From: Periconia sp. R9002 | Taxonomy: Eukaryota > Ascomycota > Dothideomycetes > Pleosporales > Periconiaceae | NCBI GenBank assembly: GCA_023627715.1 | Contig: JAMAHW010000002.1 | Span: 1-64,000, forward strand | DNA length: 64,000 nucleotides | Reading direction: 5' to 3' | In this document: in pieces, positions 13,029 through 33,801 of the stretch | Numbering within the stretch: the stretch's first letter is position 1 | Layout of the letters: each line of letters begins with the position of its first letter | Translations under genes and position numbers: made by a program | The notes under the pieces: generated by a model | Database searches by the model: none | What the model saw: the letters and a program-made list of their open reading frames with translations, nothing else | Told to the model about the DNA's origin: nothing

Positions 13029-14996
13029 ATGGTCTCCGCATCGAAAGCTGCCCGTGAGGCCAAGCGCGCCGCCGCTGGAAAGGAGCCCAAGAAGACGGCC
13101 GCCTCCAAACTCTCCTCCAAGAACGCCTCCAAGAATGCCTCCAAGGCGTCCTCCGTCAATGGCGATGACGCTGAGGATCTCGAGCTGAACGAGGAGGTCA
13201 AGAAGCTCACACTTCAGGAAGACAAGCATGGTCTCTCCGACCGTGTCACAACGGGTGTGCTCTCCTCGCTCGAAGCCTCTCGCGATGTCAAAATCACTTC
13301 AGCCTCCCTTGTGTTCCACGGCCGCGTTCTTTTCAACGACACCACCCTCGAGGTGAACTACGGCCGCCGATACGGACTGTTGGGAGAGAACGGCTGCGGA
13401 AAATCTACTCTGCTCAAGGCCATCGACAAGCGCGAGTTCCCCTTCCCCGAACACATTGACATCTACCTTCTGGACAAGGGCGCTCCCGCCACTGAGTTGG
13501 GTGCCCTCGAGTGGGTCGTGAGGGAAGCTGAGAATGAGCTCAATCGTCTTGAGAAGATGGCCGAGGATATTCTAGAGAAGGATGGTCCTGAAAGCCCTCT
13601 GCTTGATGAAATCTACGAGGTAAGTCTGGCCATATCCCAGCTGAACTGATGCATCCAACTGACTTCGCCCAGCGACAAGAAGGAATGGATCCCTCAACTT
13701 TCCACACTCGCGCCTCGCTTATCCTGACCGGTCTTGGGTTCAACAAGCACACCATCAACAAGAAAACCAAGGACATGTCTGGTGGCTGGAAGATGCGAGT
13801 GGCTCTTGCGAAGGCTCTGTTCGTCAAGCCTTCCCTTCTTTTGCTCGATGACCCCACCGCCCATTTGGATCTCGAGGCCTGCGTGTGGCTCGAAGAGTAC
13901 ATGAAGAAGTGGGATCGCACCCTCATTCTCGTTTCCCACTCCATGGACTTCTTGAACGGTGTCTGCACCAACATGATTGATATGCGCATGAAGCAACTTC
14001 TGTACTATGGTGGTAACTACGATACCTACATCAAGACCCGCACGGAACAGGAAGTCAACCAGACCAAGGCCTACGAGAAGCAGCAGGATGAAATTAAGCA
14101 CATCAAGAAGTTCATTGCTTCCGCTGGTACCTATGCCAACTTGGTCCGACAGGCCAAATCTCGCCAGAAGATTTTGGATAAGATGGAGGCTGATGGCTTC
14201 ATCCAACCTGTCGTTCAAGATCGTGTCTTTACCTTCCGTTTCGCAGATGTCGAAAAGCTGCCTCCGCCAGTGTTGTCGCTCGACGACGTGACTTTCTCTT
14301 ACTCTGGCAACATGGACGACACTCTTTACGAAAACCTAGATTTTGGTGTCGACATGGATTCCCGAACGGCTCTTGTGGGTCCCAACGGTGTAGGAAAGTC
14401 TACTCTTCTTCGCATTTTCACCGGTCAACTGTCCCCCACCAAGGGTGTCGTTTCCCGTCACACTCACTTGAAGCTCGGAATGTACACCCAACATTCTGCA
14501 GAGGCGCTCGACCTCACCAAGTCTGCTCTTGATTTTGTCCGCGACAAGTACGCCAGCACATCTCAGGACTACCAGTACTGGCGACAGCAACTCGGTAAAT
14601 ACGGTCTGAGCGGTGATTCCCAAACGGCAAAGATGGCCACGTTGTCTGAAGGCCAGAAGAGCCGTATCGTTTTCGCCTTGTTAGCTATTGAGAGCCCGAA
14701 TATGCTGTTGCTTGACGAGCCTACCAACGGTCTCGATATCCCTACCATTGACAGCTTGGCAGATGCCATCAACGCTTTCAGCGGTGGTGTTGTGGTTGTT
14801 TCTCACGACTTCCGGTAAGTTTTGACCTAATTTAGTATCAACAGAGATGTGTTTGCTAACGACATGTAGATTGCTCGACAAGATCGCAAAGGACATCATG
14901 GTGTGTGAACACAAGACGGTCCGAAGGTGGGATGGCTCTATCGGTGACTACAAGAAGCATCTCCAGAAGAAGATGCACTCCACGGGGGCCATCTAG
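13029..14996 (+). CDS. ARB1: ABCF-type ATPase ARB1 (ribosome biogenesis / ABCF2)
   Basis: Soluble twin-cassette ATPase needed for 40S and 60S ribosome maturation and shuttling between nucleus and cytoplasm. Exons 13029-13619, 13673-14814 and 14870-14996 give 619 residues, close to yeast Arb1. After a Lys/Ala/Ser-rich N-terminus, cassette 1 has Walker [13 protein letters not shown], signature MSGGWKMR and Walker [13 protein letters not shown]. Cassette 2 has [20 protein letters not shown] and [11 protein letters not shown]. The Asp-Asp-Pro-Thr-Ala form in cassette 1 and the linker with CTNMIDMR are typical of Arb1 and distinguish it from other ABCF proteins. No membrane segments are present. 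Both introns are short with GTAAGT donors. Confidence 0.96.
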
Positions 14997-15804
14997 AGAG
15001 GGGGTGTGAGTTAGTTCAGATTCGTAAATTGCATACATTTCTACGAGGAGGGATCCGGATACGAACCAAAAAGCGCTGTTTTAGATGCAGATTCTGCGCG
15101 CATATGCCGGAGGCTTGCAGCCCCTTCGAGGCCCGCTCCAGTGCTTCTGGCCACACACACGAGTGCGTGTGGACAGCACTGCATCTGGATTGTGCGTCCG
15201 TTTTTCTTGCTGCATTGGGTCCTTAGAGGAGTTTTTAGACAGCACTTTACGTTATGAGAAAATGGAATTCGACAATAGAAGCACAACAAACCGCGTTTGC
15301 GAGGTTTAGTGATGTCGCGCATGCAAAGTTGTCATCTCAGACACTAGGTTGCTGTTCAGAAGTGTTAATTAGACATCAGGGCCGTATCAGTGTTGCAATG
15401 ACATATTGTGAAGTTTTGAAGACTCTGCGTCTCACTGAACCGGTAGGTAGTGTGAAAGCAGAGTCACGTGTTTTTGTGTATGATTTGATGTATAAACCTC
15501 GGAATCTGTATGCGCATTCTGACGATTATTGAGACGAGGATAATAGGGGAGCGCATTGCGGATATCTGATGAGGGATTAAGAGCAAGGCTCAAGGGTAAA
15601 GTCGGGTGCGAACGAACCCTTGCCGGCTCGAGCTTCGAACAAAAGTTTTAGATTGTCAGCCAAGGAGACGATTCCGAAGAGCGACCGGCCATAGCTGCCA
15701 GCATCTCTCCCGTCTACGTTCAACCACAGATTCACCCCATCCGCCGTATACCCATCCCCATTTCTTTTCTTCCAGCTTGTTCTCGTGACACAATCATAGT
15801 CACG
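14997..15804. other. Intergenic, nothing recognised
   Basis: About 800 bp between two co-oriented genes, holding the ARB1 3' UTR and the promoter of the succinyl-CoA ligase gene. Open frames are short and unrecognisable. No repeat or RNA gene was seen. Confidence 0.5.
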
Positions 15805-17117
<1,313 letters not shown>

Positions 17118-27416: not shown

Positions 27417-28533
27417 ATGATATCTCTTTCTCAAACGGCAAAGTGGAACTTCGACATCGACCGCTATGTCAACAAGATCGTTCCTCCTTCACCGTTACAC
27501 AAGCTTCCCACAACTATCTCGAGATGGTTCGGTTACAGGAAAGAGCAAGGACCGGATATTGGTAACGTGATGGGAGCCTTTTGGTCTTTTGTAGGCGCAT
27601 TTTGCGGGTTAGCTGTCATTGCGGCTGTTTTTAACAATGTGGTCGATATTCAAGCGCATAATCCTCCCGCGTTGATTGCGAGTTTTGTAAGTTTTTGAAA
27701 AATCTCATTTCCATACCCACTTCTAGGTTCATCCACACGACGCCATAACAGAGCAAAACAACAACTTTATTAACCAAGTTTCTAACCACCCCCAGGGCGC
27801 CTCTGCAATCCTCGAATATAATGTAATCCGTTCTCCCCTAGGCCAACCCCGCAACGCTCTCCTAGGACACACTTTCTCCGCCCTCATTGGTGTCAGCATA
27901 ACTAAACTCTTCCTCCTGCATCCATCCGCTTTCCCCCATCTCCGCTGGATCGCTGGCGCTGTCTCTTGCGGCCTCGCCTCAGCCGTGATGCTGCTAACCG
28001 GCACCGTGCACCCACCAGGAGGCGCGTCCGCCGTGCTCGCCGCTACCAGCCCTGAAATCACCGCTATGGGATGGTATTTCGTTGGCCTTGTCATGCTCGG
28101 CACGTCGCTGATGCTGTGCGTCGCGCTCGTGATCAACAACATCCAGAGGACCTTCCCTGTGTATTGGTGGACACCTTTGGATGTCAAACGTACGAGGAGA
28201 AAGGACGAGGAGGTTATGCCGGATGCCACGGGTGGTTTTGAGTTTGAAAGTGAGGAAAAGGAAAAGAGTACCAGCACAGGCGGGAAAGACGACGACAAGG
28301 GAACGAGTATTCTCATATCATCGACCGGTGTGTCGTTGCCGGCCGATCTCGCACTCAACACGGAGGAAGCAAAGCTGTTGGAACGTTTGAAGTCTAGGCT
28401 AGCAAAAATGGAGAGGACTAGTGAGGACGAGGAAACGGAAGGTTCAAACGCGTCGGTCAGGTCGAGCACTGAGATTACGATGGTGCCTAGTCACCATGCT
28501 GCGGGGAGGGATAGCGACGGCGGCATCCCTTAA
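27417..28533 (+). CDS. HPP family integral membrane protein
   Basis: Membrane protein of the HPP family (Pfam HPP), which in plants and cyanobacteria includes nitrite transporters of chloroplasts; fungal members are uncharacterised. Exons 27417-27686 and 27796-28533 give 335 residues. The N-terminal part has a hydrophobic helix (VMGAFWSFVGAFCGLAVIAA). After the intron, GASAILEYNVIRSPLGQPRN, an ALLGHTFSALIGVSITKLFL helix, and the name-giving TGTVHPPGGASAVLAA motif follow, then a last helix with LVMLGTSLMLCVALVINNIQR. The C-terminal about 115 residues are charged and predicted cytosolic. The four-helix arrangement is normal for the family. Transport substrate not deducible. Confidence 0.88.
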
Positions 28534-29423: not shown

Positions 29424-31944
29424 CTACGTGTCCTTTTTCTTCAGGGTAAACATGTCCTTGATCCGTCTGAATGATGTTCTCTTCCTTTCCTCGTTTGCAG
29501 CAGACTTCATACCCACCTTCACCTGCGAGAGCTCATTACGACAACGAATAGTAATGTCATGTTCAGAGCCGTACGTTTCTACATATCCCCGGTACAATCG
29601 TTCATACAACTCTACAGACTCGCTGTATTCATTCAATTCATACAAGGTCACGGCAAGCGACCGTACCGTAACCAGCGTGAAGGGGTGCCGCTCCCCTAGC
29701 ACTTCCTCCCGCTTTCCAAGCACTTTTCGGAAAATTGACTCTGCAGCCTTGTGCTTCCCCTGTTTTGACATTATTTGCGCTATGGTATATGTGCACAACA
29801 GTGTTCTTTGATCTTGCCCCCCAAATTCCTTCTCGAATCTTTCTAACACTTGTCGGGTGAGTGCTTCAGCTTCCTCATACTGTCCTAAATGGTTCAACGT
29901 AGCTCCTAAATACAGGAGAGTTCGTGGATTGAGATACTCCATGTACTTCCTCTCGTCTTCTAGCAATTTCCGAAATAGTGTTTCTGCTTCTTTAAACTTC
30001 TTCTGATTACGCCAAATCGATCCTAATTGGCCTCTACAATTTAGCGTTATAGGATGTTCCACTCCTAGCTGTTTCTCGAATCCCTGTAGCACCTGCAGAG
30101 TACGCTCCTCCGCTTCCATATATTCTCCGAGGCTTGAAAGTATGAGAGCTAGGCATTCGACACTGCGTAGTGTGCCTAGACTCTCCAATCCAAGCACACG
30201 CGTTCGAATCTCAACTGCTTTCCTCGCTATCTGTTGCGCTGCGCGGAATTTGCCTAATCGTTCCAGATACCATGAAACACGAGTCAACAACTTCGCCTGC
30301 GCCTCCATCCCCTTCTCTGAGTCAGGCTCGGCGTTGAGCAAAGGCTCGATGTGTGGAAACAGCTGCTCACATATTGGCCAATTCTCATATACTCCGTTTG
30401 GGAATTGCTCAGCCATTATCTCTAGAAAAATGTCACTCCAATACACCAAGTTTCCGGTGGACTTGAGCCAGACTTGGGTACAGAATTGCACGAGAGGGTG
30501 CATCCCACACATGGTGCCATCCGCTTCGATTGAGACTATTGAGTAGGCGTGGAGCGTGTTAAGGTCTTCATCCAAGGTCTTCTCAACTGGAGTACTTCGT
30601 CGTAGCACCCATTCCGGGATCCCCTGTGGATTAAAGAAGCTCAGCAACGATAACAATTCGGTTGCCGTCCGCCGTTCTTGCTGGATCTTCTCAAAAGACA
30701 TCTGCCACGTCGTCATCACCGAATTTGATGCGGTCTCATCTCGTCGGAGATCATCAGCTTCATGATGCAGTAGCCTCTCACGTTTCTCTTTGCTGGAGAG
30801 GAACGACTGGATGAAAGCTGATATCGACGAGATCGCCTGTCGATTGATGTACGCTGCGGCTTGAGCAATGGCCAGAGGCACACCATTAAGAATGTTTACC
30901 AGTTTTTCCAGTTCATCGGGATAGGTGCGGGCCAACTTTTCATCTGATAGCTTCGTGCGTAAGAGCTGTAGGCTTTGATTTTGGTCCATTGTCGTTACTT
31001 GCTTGATATTTTTGTGGCCTCCCACTAGCCTAGCCGCTGCTTCATTGTTGCGTGACGTAATTAGTATCGATCCGTTGCCATTTTTCGGGAGGTAGGTTGC
31101 CAGCGACAAAGGAATTGTATCTTGTTGCTGCGGACTCGGATCTCCTTGTGGCGGTGACGGGAAGAAAGTGTCTGTATCATCCACGTTGTCTAGTACTATC
31201 ATCCACCGTTCAGTTCTTTCGTCTTCGAGCCAGTTGCACACTAATCGCAGTTCGTCTACGTTTGGTTGGTTATGGCCTGGTAGTTGAAGCCTGTGTGCGA
31301 TGTTTTTGTACGCCTGCTCGAATCGAGGGCGAGTGCTGGCGTGCACCCAGAACACATGGGGGCGCGGCTCTGTTCTGAAAAAATCGTGGGCATATTGTAT
31401 AGCAAGCTGCGATTTACTACCTATCTTCAGACTTGTTACTCTCGAGGGGCAAAAGCCTACTTACCCTACTCCACCAAGGCCCACCAGCGCAGCGCGAGCA
31501 CCCGGTGGGGCACATTTATTGCGCACCCAGTCGAGGATCTCAACCCGTTTGACAAAATCAGGATCTGGGGCAAATGGGATGGTGGAAAAAGGTTCATTTG
31601 GTTCAGTTTTTTTATCTTTCGGTGTGTCAGTATCAGTAACGTAAATTATTCTGGTCCTACAGGGGTATGACATGTCGGGAGGACACATATCGGGCAGCTA
31701 GTGTACCAGGTTCACAAATCAGATAACTATACCAGACATACTACGTAGGTAGTAGAGCTTCTAATTTGTAGAACCTATTAGTCCTCCCGATATGTGACTT
31801 CCCGGCGTGTCACTCCTCTGTACTAGACGTACCTTGCGGCACGGGTCCATAGTAATTGTTCATGGTGGCCCCCTGCTCGAAGCGTAGGCCTGCGAAAACA
31901 TTGTGGCCCTCAATAGCTCCATTGAAATTCGTGGAATTTGACAT
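29424..31944 (-). CDS. NB-ARC/TPR NLR-like receptor with N-terminal amyloid-signalling-type motif
   Basis: Fungal NOD-like receptor. Exons 31944-31833, 31615-31465 and 31416-29424 give 751 residues. Residues about 5-30 form a short Gly/Asn-rich segment (F7-N8, then G13-H14-N15-V16, G19, R21-F22, G25) with no globular domain before the NB-ARC. Walker A GLGGVGKS is at 83-90, split by a 48-bp intron exactly inside the motif. Walker B is RWMIVLDNVDD near 159-168, and GVPLAIAQAAAYI marks the GLPL-type motif. From about 490 onward at least five kinesin-light-chain TPR repeats follow (for example GEYMEAEERTLQVLQGFEKQ). Intron 1 is 217 bp because it contains a 161-bp MITE. The gene is divergent from a SesB-like hydrolase bearing a matching motif. 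No repeats of WD or ankyrin type. Confidence 0.88.
31660..31820. mobile_element. 161-bp Tc1/mariner-type MITE in NLR intron 1
   Basis: Long imperfect terminal inverted repeats (over 40 bp) begin CAGGGGTATGACATGTCGGG at the left and end, as complement, with CAGAGGAGTGACACGCCGGG at the right. Both ends share the inner CACATATCGGG block and a later GGTT..ACAAAT block. TA dinucleotides flank the element at 31658-31659 and 31821-31822, consistent with TA target duplication. The element lies wholly in the first NLR intron; without it that intron would be 54 bp, the usual size here. Confidence 0.8.
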
Positions 31945-32461
31945 GCTCAATGCTAAGCAGCTCGAGCCGCAAAAATACTCATATTTGATACAAAAGAGTG
32001 TACCGAAGGTGAAAGTAAGTTAATGATAGGAGGATAGCCAGGCTGGCGCTTAGCAGCTGAAGAGATGCAGAGAATGCTGCATGTTTTACATAATCTGATA
32101 TATCCTTGTCGTACCTGACACGAAGAGCGACAATGAAGGATGATGTACATGTACCAGACATCTAGAAGTACCACACACGCCACAGTGATTTATATGAATG
32201 TGCACTAGTCTTATGGATAGGGATACTGTAGCGCACCGAACACAGCAGCAACTTCACGGTTTTTTTTATAATTGATTGAAGGATTATGGCTGTCTTTCAC
32301 TGGGTTGGTAACAGGGCTTCAGGTTCCTGAATCCTGATTGAGCGTGATTGGGCGTTCTACCCCTGCCCATAAAAGCTGGAGCCTTCCTCAGCCTTGTATG
32401 TTTCGCAGTCTCTTGAACCACCGCAATAAGAAAATATAGATAATTCTTTCTTGAGATATCA
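31945..32461. promoter_or_regulatory. Shared divergent promoter of the NLR and the SesB-like hydrolase
   Basis: About 517 bp between the two start codons. No coding sequence or obvious motif was recognised. Divergent arrangement suggests co-regulation of receptor and effector. Confidence 0.45.
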
Positions 32462-33801
32462 ATGCATTCCATCAAAAATTTTGTCGGTCGATTATCACCG
32501 CGCGCTGTAGTAGGTGCAGAGCCGACACAAGACCAAGCTCCAACAGATGAGCTCTTCTCCACAGCTGGTGCCTACGGCCTTCGAACATTATCGGAAAGCG
32601 CCGAAAACACGGTCGAGTATGTCACTTTGGTGAATAGCGCGTTGGCCTCTAACTGGCGTTACTAGCATTGTGTTCGTCCACGGTCTGACTGGGAATCGCG
32701 AAAATACATGGACCGACAAATCCGCCCACGTATTTTGGCCTCAGGATCTTCTAGCCAAAGATTTACCGAAGGCGCGGATTGCCACGTTCGGGTATGACGC
32801 CGACATAGTGGGAGGATTGAGCATGGCTGGGAATGGCACTTTGAGAGATCATGGTAAGGCTTTGGCTGAAGACGTCGCGATGTGGCGTAAGAGGTCACGC
32901 ACTGTAAGGTTTCTGAAGTAACTCCAGTCTGGTAGAGGATGTAAAAAAGAGAGACGTATGTTGACCCGAATGATAGAATCTCCGTCCTCTGATATTCGTC
33001 GCACACAGTCTCGGTGGTCTGGTAGTTGAACAGGTGAGTTACTCAACGACACGCAAACTCGCTACAACTCCATTGATACAAAGATAGTCTCTTCTTGTCT
33101 CTCGCGGTTCAGCACAGCAGCACGTCAAAGACCTGCTTGAAAGCACTATAGCAATTGCGTTCATGGGCACGCCACATCTCGGGGCGAACCTCGCTAATTG
33201 GGGGACTCCTATCTCCAGGCTGTCCAACCTACTGCGTAAAACAAACACAGAAATCGTGGCACTTCTCAAACCCGGTTCCGAAATGCTTGCCGCGGTTCAA
33301 CAGGAATTCCACACCATGCTAGATGATCGAAGTAGAAACGAGGGCAAACATCTCAACATCTACTGTTTCTATGAGGAAGTTGGGTACACGGGCATCGGCG
33401 AGGTATAACAAAGTACTACTACCCTCAGTATTATATCATCTAAGTCTTTATAGATTGTACCGAAGCAATCCGCTATTCTCACCGCATACCCAAATAACGC
33501 TATCCACTCAACACATACTGGTATGCCGAGGTTCAAAACAGCCATGGATGCCGGGTATATACGAGTCCAAAGCCAACTCTGGCTTTGGTACAACGAAGTT
33601 GAAGAAAACCTGGAAAGATTGAATCGGGATGAGACTGTGGCAGGAACGCAGCAACAGCAACACTCTCTTCCACCTGGTAGGGATGAGAACGGTGGTAACA
33701 GAGGGGCTTCGGACGGCGGTGTCGTTTTCAACGCACCCGTCACTGGTCACAATGTAGTGAATGGTGCGAGATTTACGGGAGGTACTTTACACTTTTCTTG
33801 A
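32462..33801 (+). CDS. SesB-like alpha/beta-hydrolase (serine esterase) with C-terminal amyloid-signalling-type motif
   Basis: Putative lipase/esterase effector. Five exons (32462-32616, 32666-32903, 32977-33033, 33088-33402, 33454-33801) give 370 residues. The oxyanion segment VFVHGLTGNRENTWT is near 54-68, the nucleophile S142 sits in VAHSLGG, and the catalytic His is probably H276 in STHTGMPRF. GTPHLGANLANWG is another SesB/DUF676 family landmark. A Gln/Gly/Asn-rich linker leads to the last about 25 residues, where F347-N348, G353-H354-N355-V356, G359, R361-F362 and G365 match the NLR N-terminal motif in spacing and identity. Exon 3 is only 57 bp. All junction phases agree, so the gene appears intact despite several stop codons in unspliced frames. 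Cell-death activity is inferred, not shown. Confidence 0.85.

Follow-up and report, generated by a model that had tools for sequence, protein, structure and literature searches.

We analysed a 64,000-nucleotide window (Periconia sp. R9002, contig JAMAHW010000002.1, positions 1 to 64,000, the start of contig C2 in our numbering) from a 42.9 Mb genome assembled in 267 contigs. It contains a divergent gene pair, a NOD-like receptor (NLR) of the NB-ARC/TPR type on the minus strand and a SesB-type hydrolase on the plus strand, whose products share a short motif at the N-terminus of the receptor and the C-terminus of the hydrolase. By analogy with characterized fungal systems, we consider it probable (about 0.78) that this pair is a two-gene NLR/effector system signalling through templating of the shared motif. 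The analysis itself shows the gene architecture, the homology of both proteins, the distribution of the motif among the listed homologues and the lack of a match to the PP and sigma motif profiles. The first-pass annotation had likened the layout (N-terminal NLR motif, C-terminal effector motif, adjacent divergent genes) to that of known amyloid-signalling pairs, and it agrees with the STAND/SesB pairs described in PMC3321046 and PMC5485727.

The NLR N-terminus with FNGAIEGHNVFAGLRFEQG and the hydrolase C-terminus with FNAPVTGHNVVNGARFTGG are identical at 10 of 19 core positions. Aligned without gaps, the two termini score 53 at best, a value reached by none of 5,000 shuffles of the 45-residue termini (maximum 45). 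Homologues were taken as the best 120 of 918 for the hydrolase and the best 120 of 988 for the NLR (the listed homologues below). A hidden Markov model (HMM) was built from the 18 listed hydrolase tails, all from outside the window, that fit a simple pattern, and matches were accepted at an independent E-value (i-E) below 0.01. This foreign-hydrolase HMM matched 39 of 121 NLR N-termini (the listed NLRs plus that of the window, first 80 residues each), and it matched none of the 721 control sequences (121 reversed and 600 shuffled N-termini). The window NLR motif was recovered with an i-E of 2.1e-4 when the 121 N-termini were searched, 0.0044 when the 121 NLRs were searched at full length and 0.0088 in a set of 244 proteins, and the window hydrolase, itself outside the HMM, scored 1.3e-6. 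At full length 37/121 NLRs matched; the match starts within residues 4-9 in 35 of them and at residues 56 and 363 in the other two. On the hydrolase side the motif was found in 21 of the 120 listed homologues, including the four closest (P0001-P0004). Thus the earlier proposal of a motif common to NLR residues 7-25 and hydrolase residues 347-365 is borne out, as is the expectation that homologues carry it on both sides. Many of the motif-negative NLRs listed are truncated or open with another domain.

The family motif reads approximately F-N-G-P-I-x-G-R/H-x-V-I-x-G-T-Q/H-x-x-G-G-T-x-N-F-N-F. The two window copies share R15 and F16. R15 is absent from all 37 pattern-matched NLR motifs and all 18 hydrolase motifs of the listed homologues; F16 is found in P0153 among the same 37 NLR motifs and in none of the 18. 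Because the R15 codons differ (CGC in one window gene, AGA in the other) and only 28 of the 57 core nucleotides agree, a recent copy or conversion event is unlikely. A scan of frames without stops at loci L001-L048 gave no additional copy (best foreign i-E, 11); this set is smaller than the whole genome, and split exons can escape it.

The nearest named proteins come from Phaeosphaeriaceae, Eremomyces, Tricladium and Talaromyces and, like the introns and the NLR content, indicate a filamentous ascomycete. The search for the pair in other genomes suggested by the first-pass annotation returned three named fungi with the motif on both a hydrolase and an NLR: Talaromyces amestolkiae (P0004 and P0153, with consecutive tags BHQ10_009463/BHQ10_009464), Tricladium varicosporioides (P0003 and P0129) and Zopfia rhizophila (P0063 and P0122). 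In all three the pairing was read by eye from contigs of exactly equal length, supplemented in Talaromyces by the tags; no equal-length NLR contig was seen by eye for motif-less hydrolases among the listed NLRs. For these three pairs and that of the window, the cognate arrangement ranks 1/24 by identity and 2/24 by BLOSUM score. Over these four pairs the evidence that the two motifs co-vary is suggestive only.

The effector is predicted to be a SesB-like (DUF676) alpha/beta hydrolase, as indicated by Pfam, the nucleophile elbow, the histidine and the model of a homologue. A 360-amino-acid gene model, on which the Pfam and homologue searches were run, matched DUF676 (PF05057) at 24.6 bits against a cut-off of 20.3. 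This model, with another acceptor for intron 3, was rejected, as the acceptor at 33088 restores ten homologue-aligned residues (SLLVSRGSAQ, facing ALLVSRGSAQ of P0001 and P0003); the final model has five exons spanning 32462-33801 and encodes 370 amino acids. An alignment of 15 sequences shows conservation of Ser142, His276 and Glu246, save for P0004, which lacks the serine segment; the choice of an acid residue for the catalytic triad is a guess. The deposited P0004 model either misses an exon or represents a dead copy. For the Tricladium hydrolase P0003, an AlphaFold2 model built on a 43-sequence alignment shows an alpha/beta-hydrolase core at high confidence. Its predicted local distance difference test score is below 50 over residues 350-377, the tail that contains the motif, and this suggests that the motif-bearing tail is probably disordered. 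Foldseek searches with the model returned generic alpha/beta hydrolases at 9-16% identity among the 50 rows listed.

As to which motif family is involved, 49 motif instances, the two of the window included, were compared with Pfam profiles at E-values up to 10, a range in which the HMMER filters drop most matches above ~0.1. PF17046 (Ses_B), stated to be the PP motif profile in PMC12261475, matched 0 of the 49 and recovered as positive controls both motifs of a pair elsewhere in the genome, on contig C15 (E-values 2.6e-10 and 1.5e-7), and P0218. PF17106, the sigma motif profile, likewise matched 0 of 49, with positive controls covering PF17046 only, and had no match in the host genome. Membership in the PP and sigma families was rejected on these profiles, and the suggestion of a variant motif family is upheld as far as it can be tested; of the comparison with published profiles that had been proposed, the PP and sigma parts were carried out. 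The consensus strings of PUASM and GDQN matched 0/49 instances (HRAM strings were not searched), a weak test because a relaxed PP string missed the host genome's own PP pair.

In layout the pair resembles these systems. In the sigma system (SesA/SesB/HET-eN of Nectria haematococca; PMC3321046), a SesB-type hydrolase with a C-terminal motif lies beside an NLR with a matching N-terminal motif, and there, too, an intron in the 5' part of the NLR gene had gone unnoticed; however, sigma consists of two units, A (GxGxQFNxx) and B (GGTQNINT), repeated three times, and the window family has no PF17106 match. In the PP system (PNT1/HELLP/SBP of Chaetomium globosum; PMC5485727), the motif is near the NLR N-terminus and one effector is the SesB-type lipase SBP, but the PP profile is negative on the window family and positive on the C15 pair. 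PUASM, HRAM and GDQN also join a short motif at the NLR N-terminus to an effector C-terminus, whereas their reported effectors are PNP_UDP, HeLo or HeLo-like, and SesA proteins. PMC9815663 describes an unlabelled cluster, NLR34 (28 positions, 29 NLRs, Ascomycota), for which no effector partner is reported; compared by description only, its length, taxon and missing label would fit, and the window family may already have been seen there from the NLR side, partnerless. The best reading is that the family carries no label in the published texts searched.

The host genome harbours two further pairs. At C15:590244-590788 (L051), a HeLo-domain effector ending near GNTGLQVGHNSG and an NB-ARC/TPR-type NLR starting near GNQGLQVGHNSG form the PP pair recognized by the Pfam profile. 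At C104 ~13970-15839 (L011, L032), a SesB-type hydrolase ends near IIQQGSGNAARDIVHGN and the next NLR, on the same strand, begins near TFQQGAGNAGRDIYNGK; their motif, QQGxGNAxRDIxxG, differs from that of the window and scores 69 (0/5000 shuffles), and Pfam found no match in either terminal piece. Each of the three pairs matches its own partner best: the cognate scores are 53, 69 and 77, and the 12 non-cognate comparisons give 17-37; the highest, 37 (z ~4), is between the C104 effector and the PP effector. Another hydrolase tail, SGGGxxFxGNxxAGRDF, was seen by a loose pattern in 24/120 listed hydrolase homologues and, by a stricter one, near the start of 0/120 listed NLRs. Its profile (19 sequences) matches the C104 motifs weakly (i-E 0.019 and 0.044), and a link between the two would be a guess.

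The motif appears to be portable. In an IQ-TREE phylogeny built from the hydrolase domains of 94 rows of 290-430 amino acids, with the tails removed, it is found in two separate clades. The window protein groups with P0001-P0004 (100/99) within a supported group of 14, eight of which have the SGGGxxFxGNxxAGRDF tail by the loose pattern; the second, distant clade has 17 rows, 16 with the motif. The starred branches require a minimum of two gains or losses, in either direction, which indicates that hydrolase tails have been exchanged or replaced. In a tree of 68 nucleotide-binding (NB) domains selected from 122, motif NLRs are intermixed with HET-fused NLRs, and at least three changes are forced for the HET-fusion label. 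Nested among the motif NLRs is P0193, a single chain in which PNP_UDP (14-130) is followed by the motif (363-386) and NB-ARC (430-609). When the last 40 residues of P0066 served as query, five proteins were returned, among them P0242, a HET-domain protein of 300 amino acids on a 1700-base metagenome contig, with the motif at its C-terminus, ending FNGPISGRYVISGAYTTGGTANFNFPA; its model is possibly truncated at an intron, yet its end coincides with where the hydrolases end. PMC3321046, by its own criteria, reports no HET/STAND pairs. P0242, P0193 (one sequence each) and the mixing with HET-fused NLRs would represent cis and trans forms of one link, and the motif seems to occupy the place where other NLRs carry a fused effector domain.

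Several observations weigh against a motif-based signalling pair. By the HMM at 0.01, 99 of the 120 listed hydrolase homologues are without the motif. By plain identity across 16 positions, three foreign hydrolase motifs are as close to the window NLR motif (9 identical) as is its partner. Only three of the ten motif-bearing hydrolases of named fungi match an NLR on an equal-length contig among the listed NLRs, and the co-variation is drawn from four pairs. The window NLR has a branch of 0.72 against a median of 0.082 in the NB tree, which may reflect fast evolution or decay. In addition, the window NLR is interrupted by a miniature inverted-repeat transposable element (MITE), where the introns that keep the frame have weak-looking donors.

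This element, absent from the first-pass annotation, is flanked by a TA duplication (31658-31659 and 31821-31822). A genome search with a 171-base query, in which 40 of 121 candidates were scored, found it at 84-89% identity and in the main orientation in at least 39 other places, hence at least 40 with the window copy, these being lower bounds. It introduces stops in three frames between the NLR motif and the P-loop. Because it separates the motif exon from the NB-ARC exons, a continuous window NLR is a splice hypothesis, under which the receptor of this strain would work only with the MITE spliced out between motif and NB-ARC. It also gives substance to the concern of the first-pass annotation that the mRNA may have different ends. 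Five in-frame GT-AG introns are possible across the region; judged against the fungal donor consensus, the in-frame donors GTGCCG, GTCTAG and GTGACA look weak, and the better donor, GTACGT, gives no in-frame intron. The window NLR could thus be a pseudogene, its motif split from its NB-ARC and the hydrolase orphaned, as the stops, these donors and the long branch would suggest. However, exon 3 is open over ~1990 bases, the P-loop, Walker B-like and MHPLVQ segments are kept, and in-frame introns do exist, and we regard decay of this copy as a serious possibility that falls somewhat short of an even chance. It is compatible with the signalling role proposed for the family, and the conclusion at the family level is independent of whether the receptor of the window strain works.

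The gene models are given in Table 1. The start codons of the two genes are 517 bp apart, and Pfam finds NB-ARC and TPR matches in the NLR, which starts at an ATG at 31944. The 3' end of the NLR gene is adjoined by membrane-like open frames (27417-28533) with TVHPPGGAS, which we take to be perhaps of the HPP family.

Table 1. Features of the NLR/hydrolase locus (positions in the window)
Feature	Positions	Strand	Remark
NLR exon 3: remaining NB-ARC, DUF7779-like region, TPR repeats	29424..31416	-	
NLR exon 2: linker and P-loop start GLGGVG	31465..31656	-	
MITE-like element, inverted repeat ends CAG...CTG, 161 bp	31660..31820	.	between NLR motif exon and NB-ARC exons
NLR exon 1, motif exon	31829..31944	-	donor position hypothetical
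NLR-side motif FNGAIEGHNVFAGLRFEQG, residues 7-25 (F7-G25)	31870..31926	-	gene model and HMM of foreign hydrolase tails
Hydrolase exon 1	32462..32616	+	
Hydrolase exon 2, contains VHGLTGNRENTW	32666..32903	+	
Hydrolase exon 3: AHSLGG, Ser142	32977..33033	+	
Hydrolase exon 4	33088..33402	+	acceptor restores SLLVSRGSAQ
Hydrolase exon 5: His276, linker, C-terminal motif, stop	33454..33801	+	
Effector-side motif FNAPVTGHNVVNGARFTGG, residues 347-365 (F347-G365)	33727..33783	+	

Other explanations of the likeness itself can be weighed against templating. Both segments are rich in glycine and asparagine, and one of 500 shuffles of the full-length proteins reaches the score of 53, as would be expected if chance or the composition of low-complexity tails were responsible; the terminus shuffles, the recovery of NLR motifs by an HMM of foreign hydrolases with clean controls, and the homologues that carry the motif make this explanation scarcely credible. 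The pair might instead belong, in diverged form, to the PP (RHIM-like) family of amyloid motifs, which also controls SesB-type effectors (PMC3321046, PMC5485727) and is usually found at residues 5-9 of NLRs (PMC9815663), and many members of the window family have a G-x-Q core. This is unlikely, as the PP profile that finds the C15 pair and P0218 misses all 49 instances, and comparisons of the window motifs with those of C15 give scores of 20-27, close to the shuffle level. Equally improbable, in our judgement, is a docking function without amyloid, in which the shared segment would bring the hydrolase to the NLR. Templating and simple binding look alike in sequence, but the same motif is present on both partners, and by analogy PUASM aggregates (PMC9815663), as does the sigma peptide of HET-eN (an unpublished result cited in PMC3321046).

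For templating of a shared motif, a mechanism can be drawn by analogy with NWD2/HET-S, HET-eN/SesB and PNT1/SBP (PMC3321046, PMC5485727, PMC12881547). The TPR part would sense a ligand and the NB-ARC receptor would oligomerise, gathering the N-terminal NLR motifs into a beta-arch or amyloid-like fold. The folded motifs could then act as a template for their counterpart in the hydrolase, whose C-terminal tail is probably flexible, and the enzyme would be clustered and activated, probably on a lipid or other ester. By comparison with the SesB/HET-eN and PP systems, the outcome would be growth arrest or cell death in defence against non-self or pathogens. For the window pair itself we infer the oligomerisation, amyloid fold, templating, substrate and cell fate from these analogies.

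On a wider proposal we are evenly divided. It holds that the motif represents a further fungal amyloid family, separate from PP, sigma, HRAM, PUASM and GDQN and present in several classes of filamentous ascomycetes, which would wire NB-ARC/TPR receptors to two or more kinds of effector, SesB hydrolases and HET (TIR-like) proteins among them, and which, beside the PP and GNAxRDI-type SesB channels, would form one of three insulated prion-like lines rewired by tail exchange. If true, this would add a motif family with both partners to a signalling principle of fungi, bacteria and mammals. The three pairs in one genome, each matching its own partner only, offer a ready test of prion-like signal insulation, and HET-domain carriers, should further ones be found, would tie amyloid templating to the main effector domain of fungal incompatibility.

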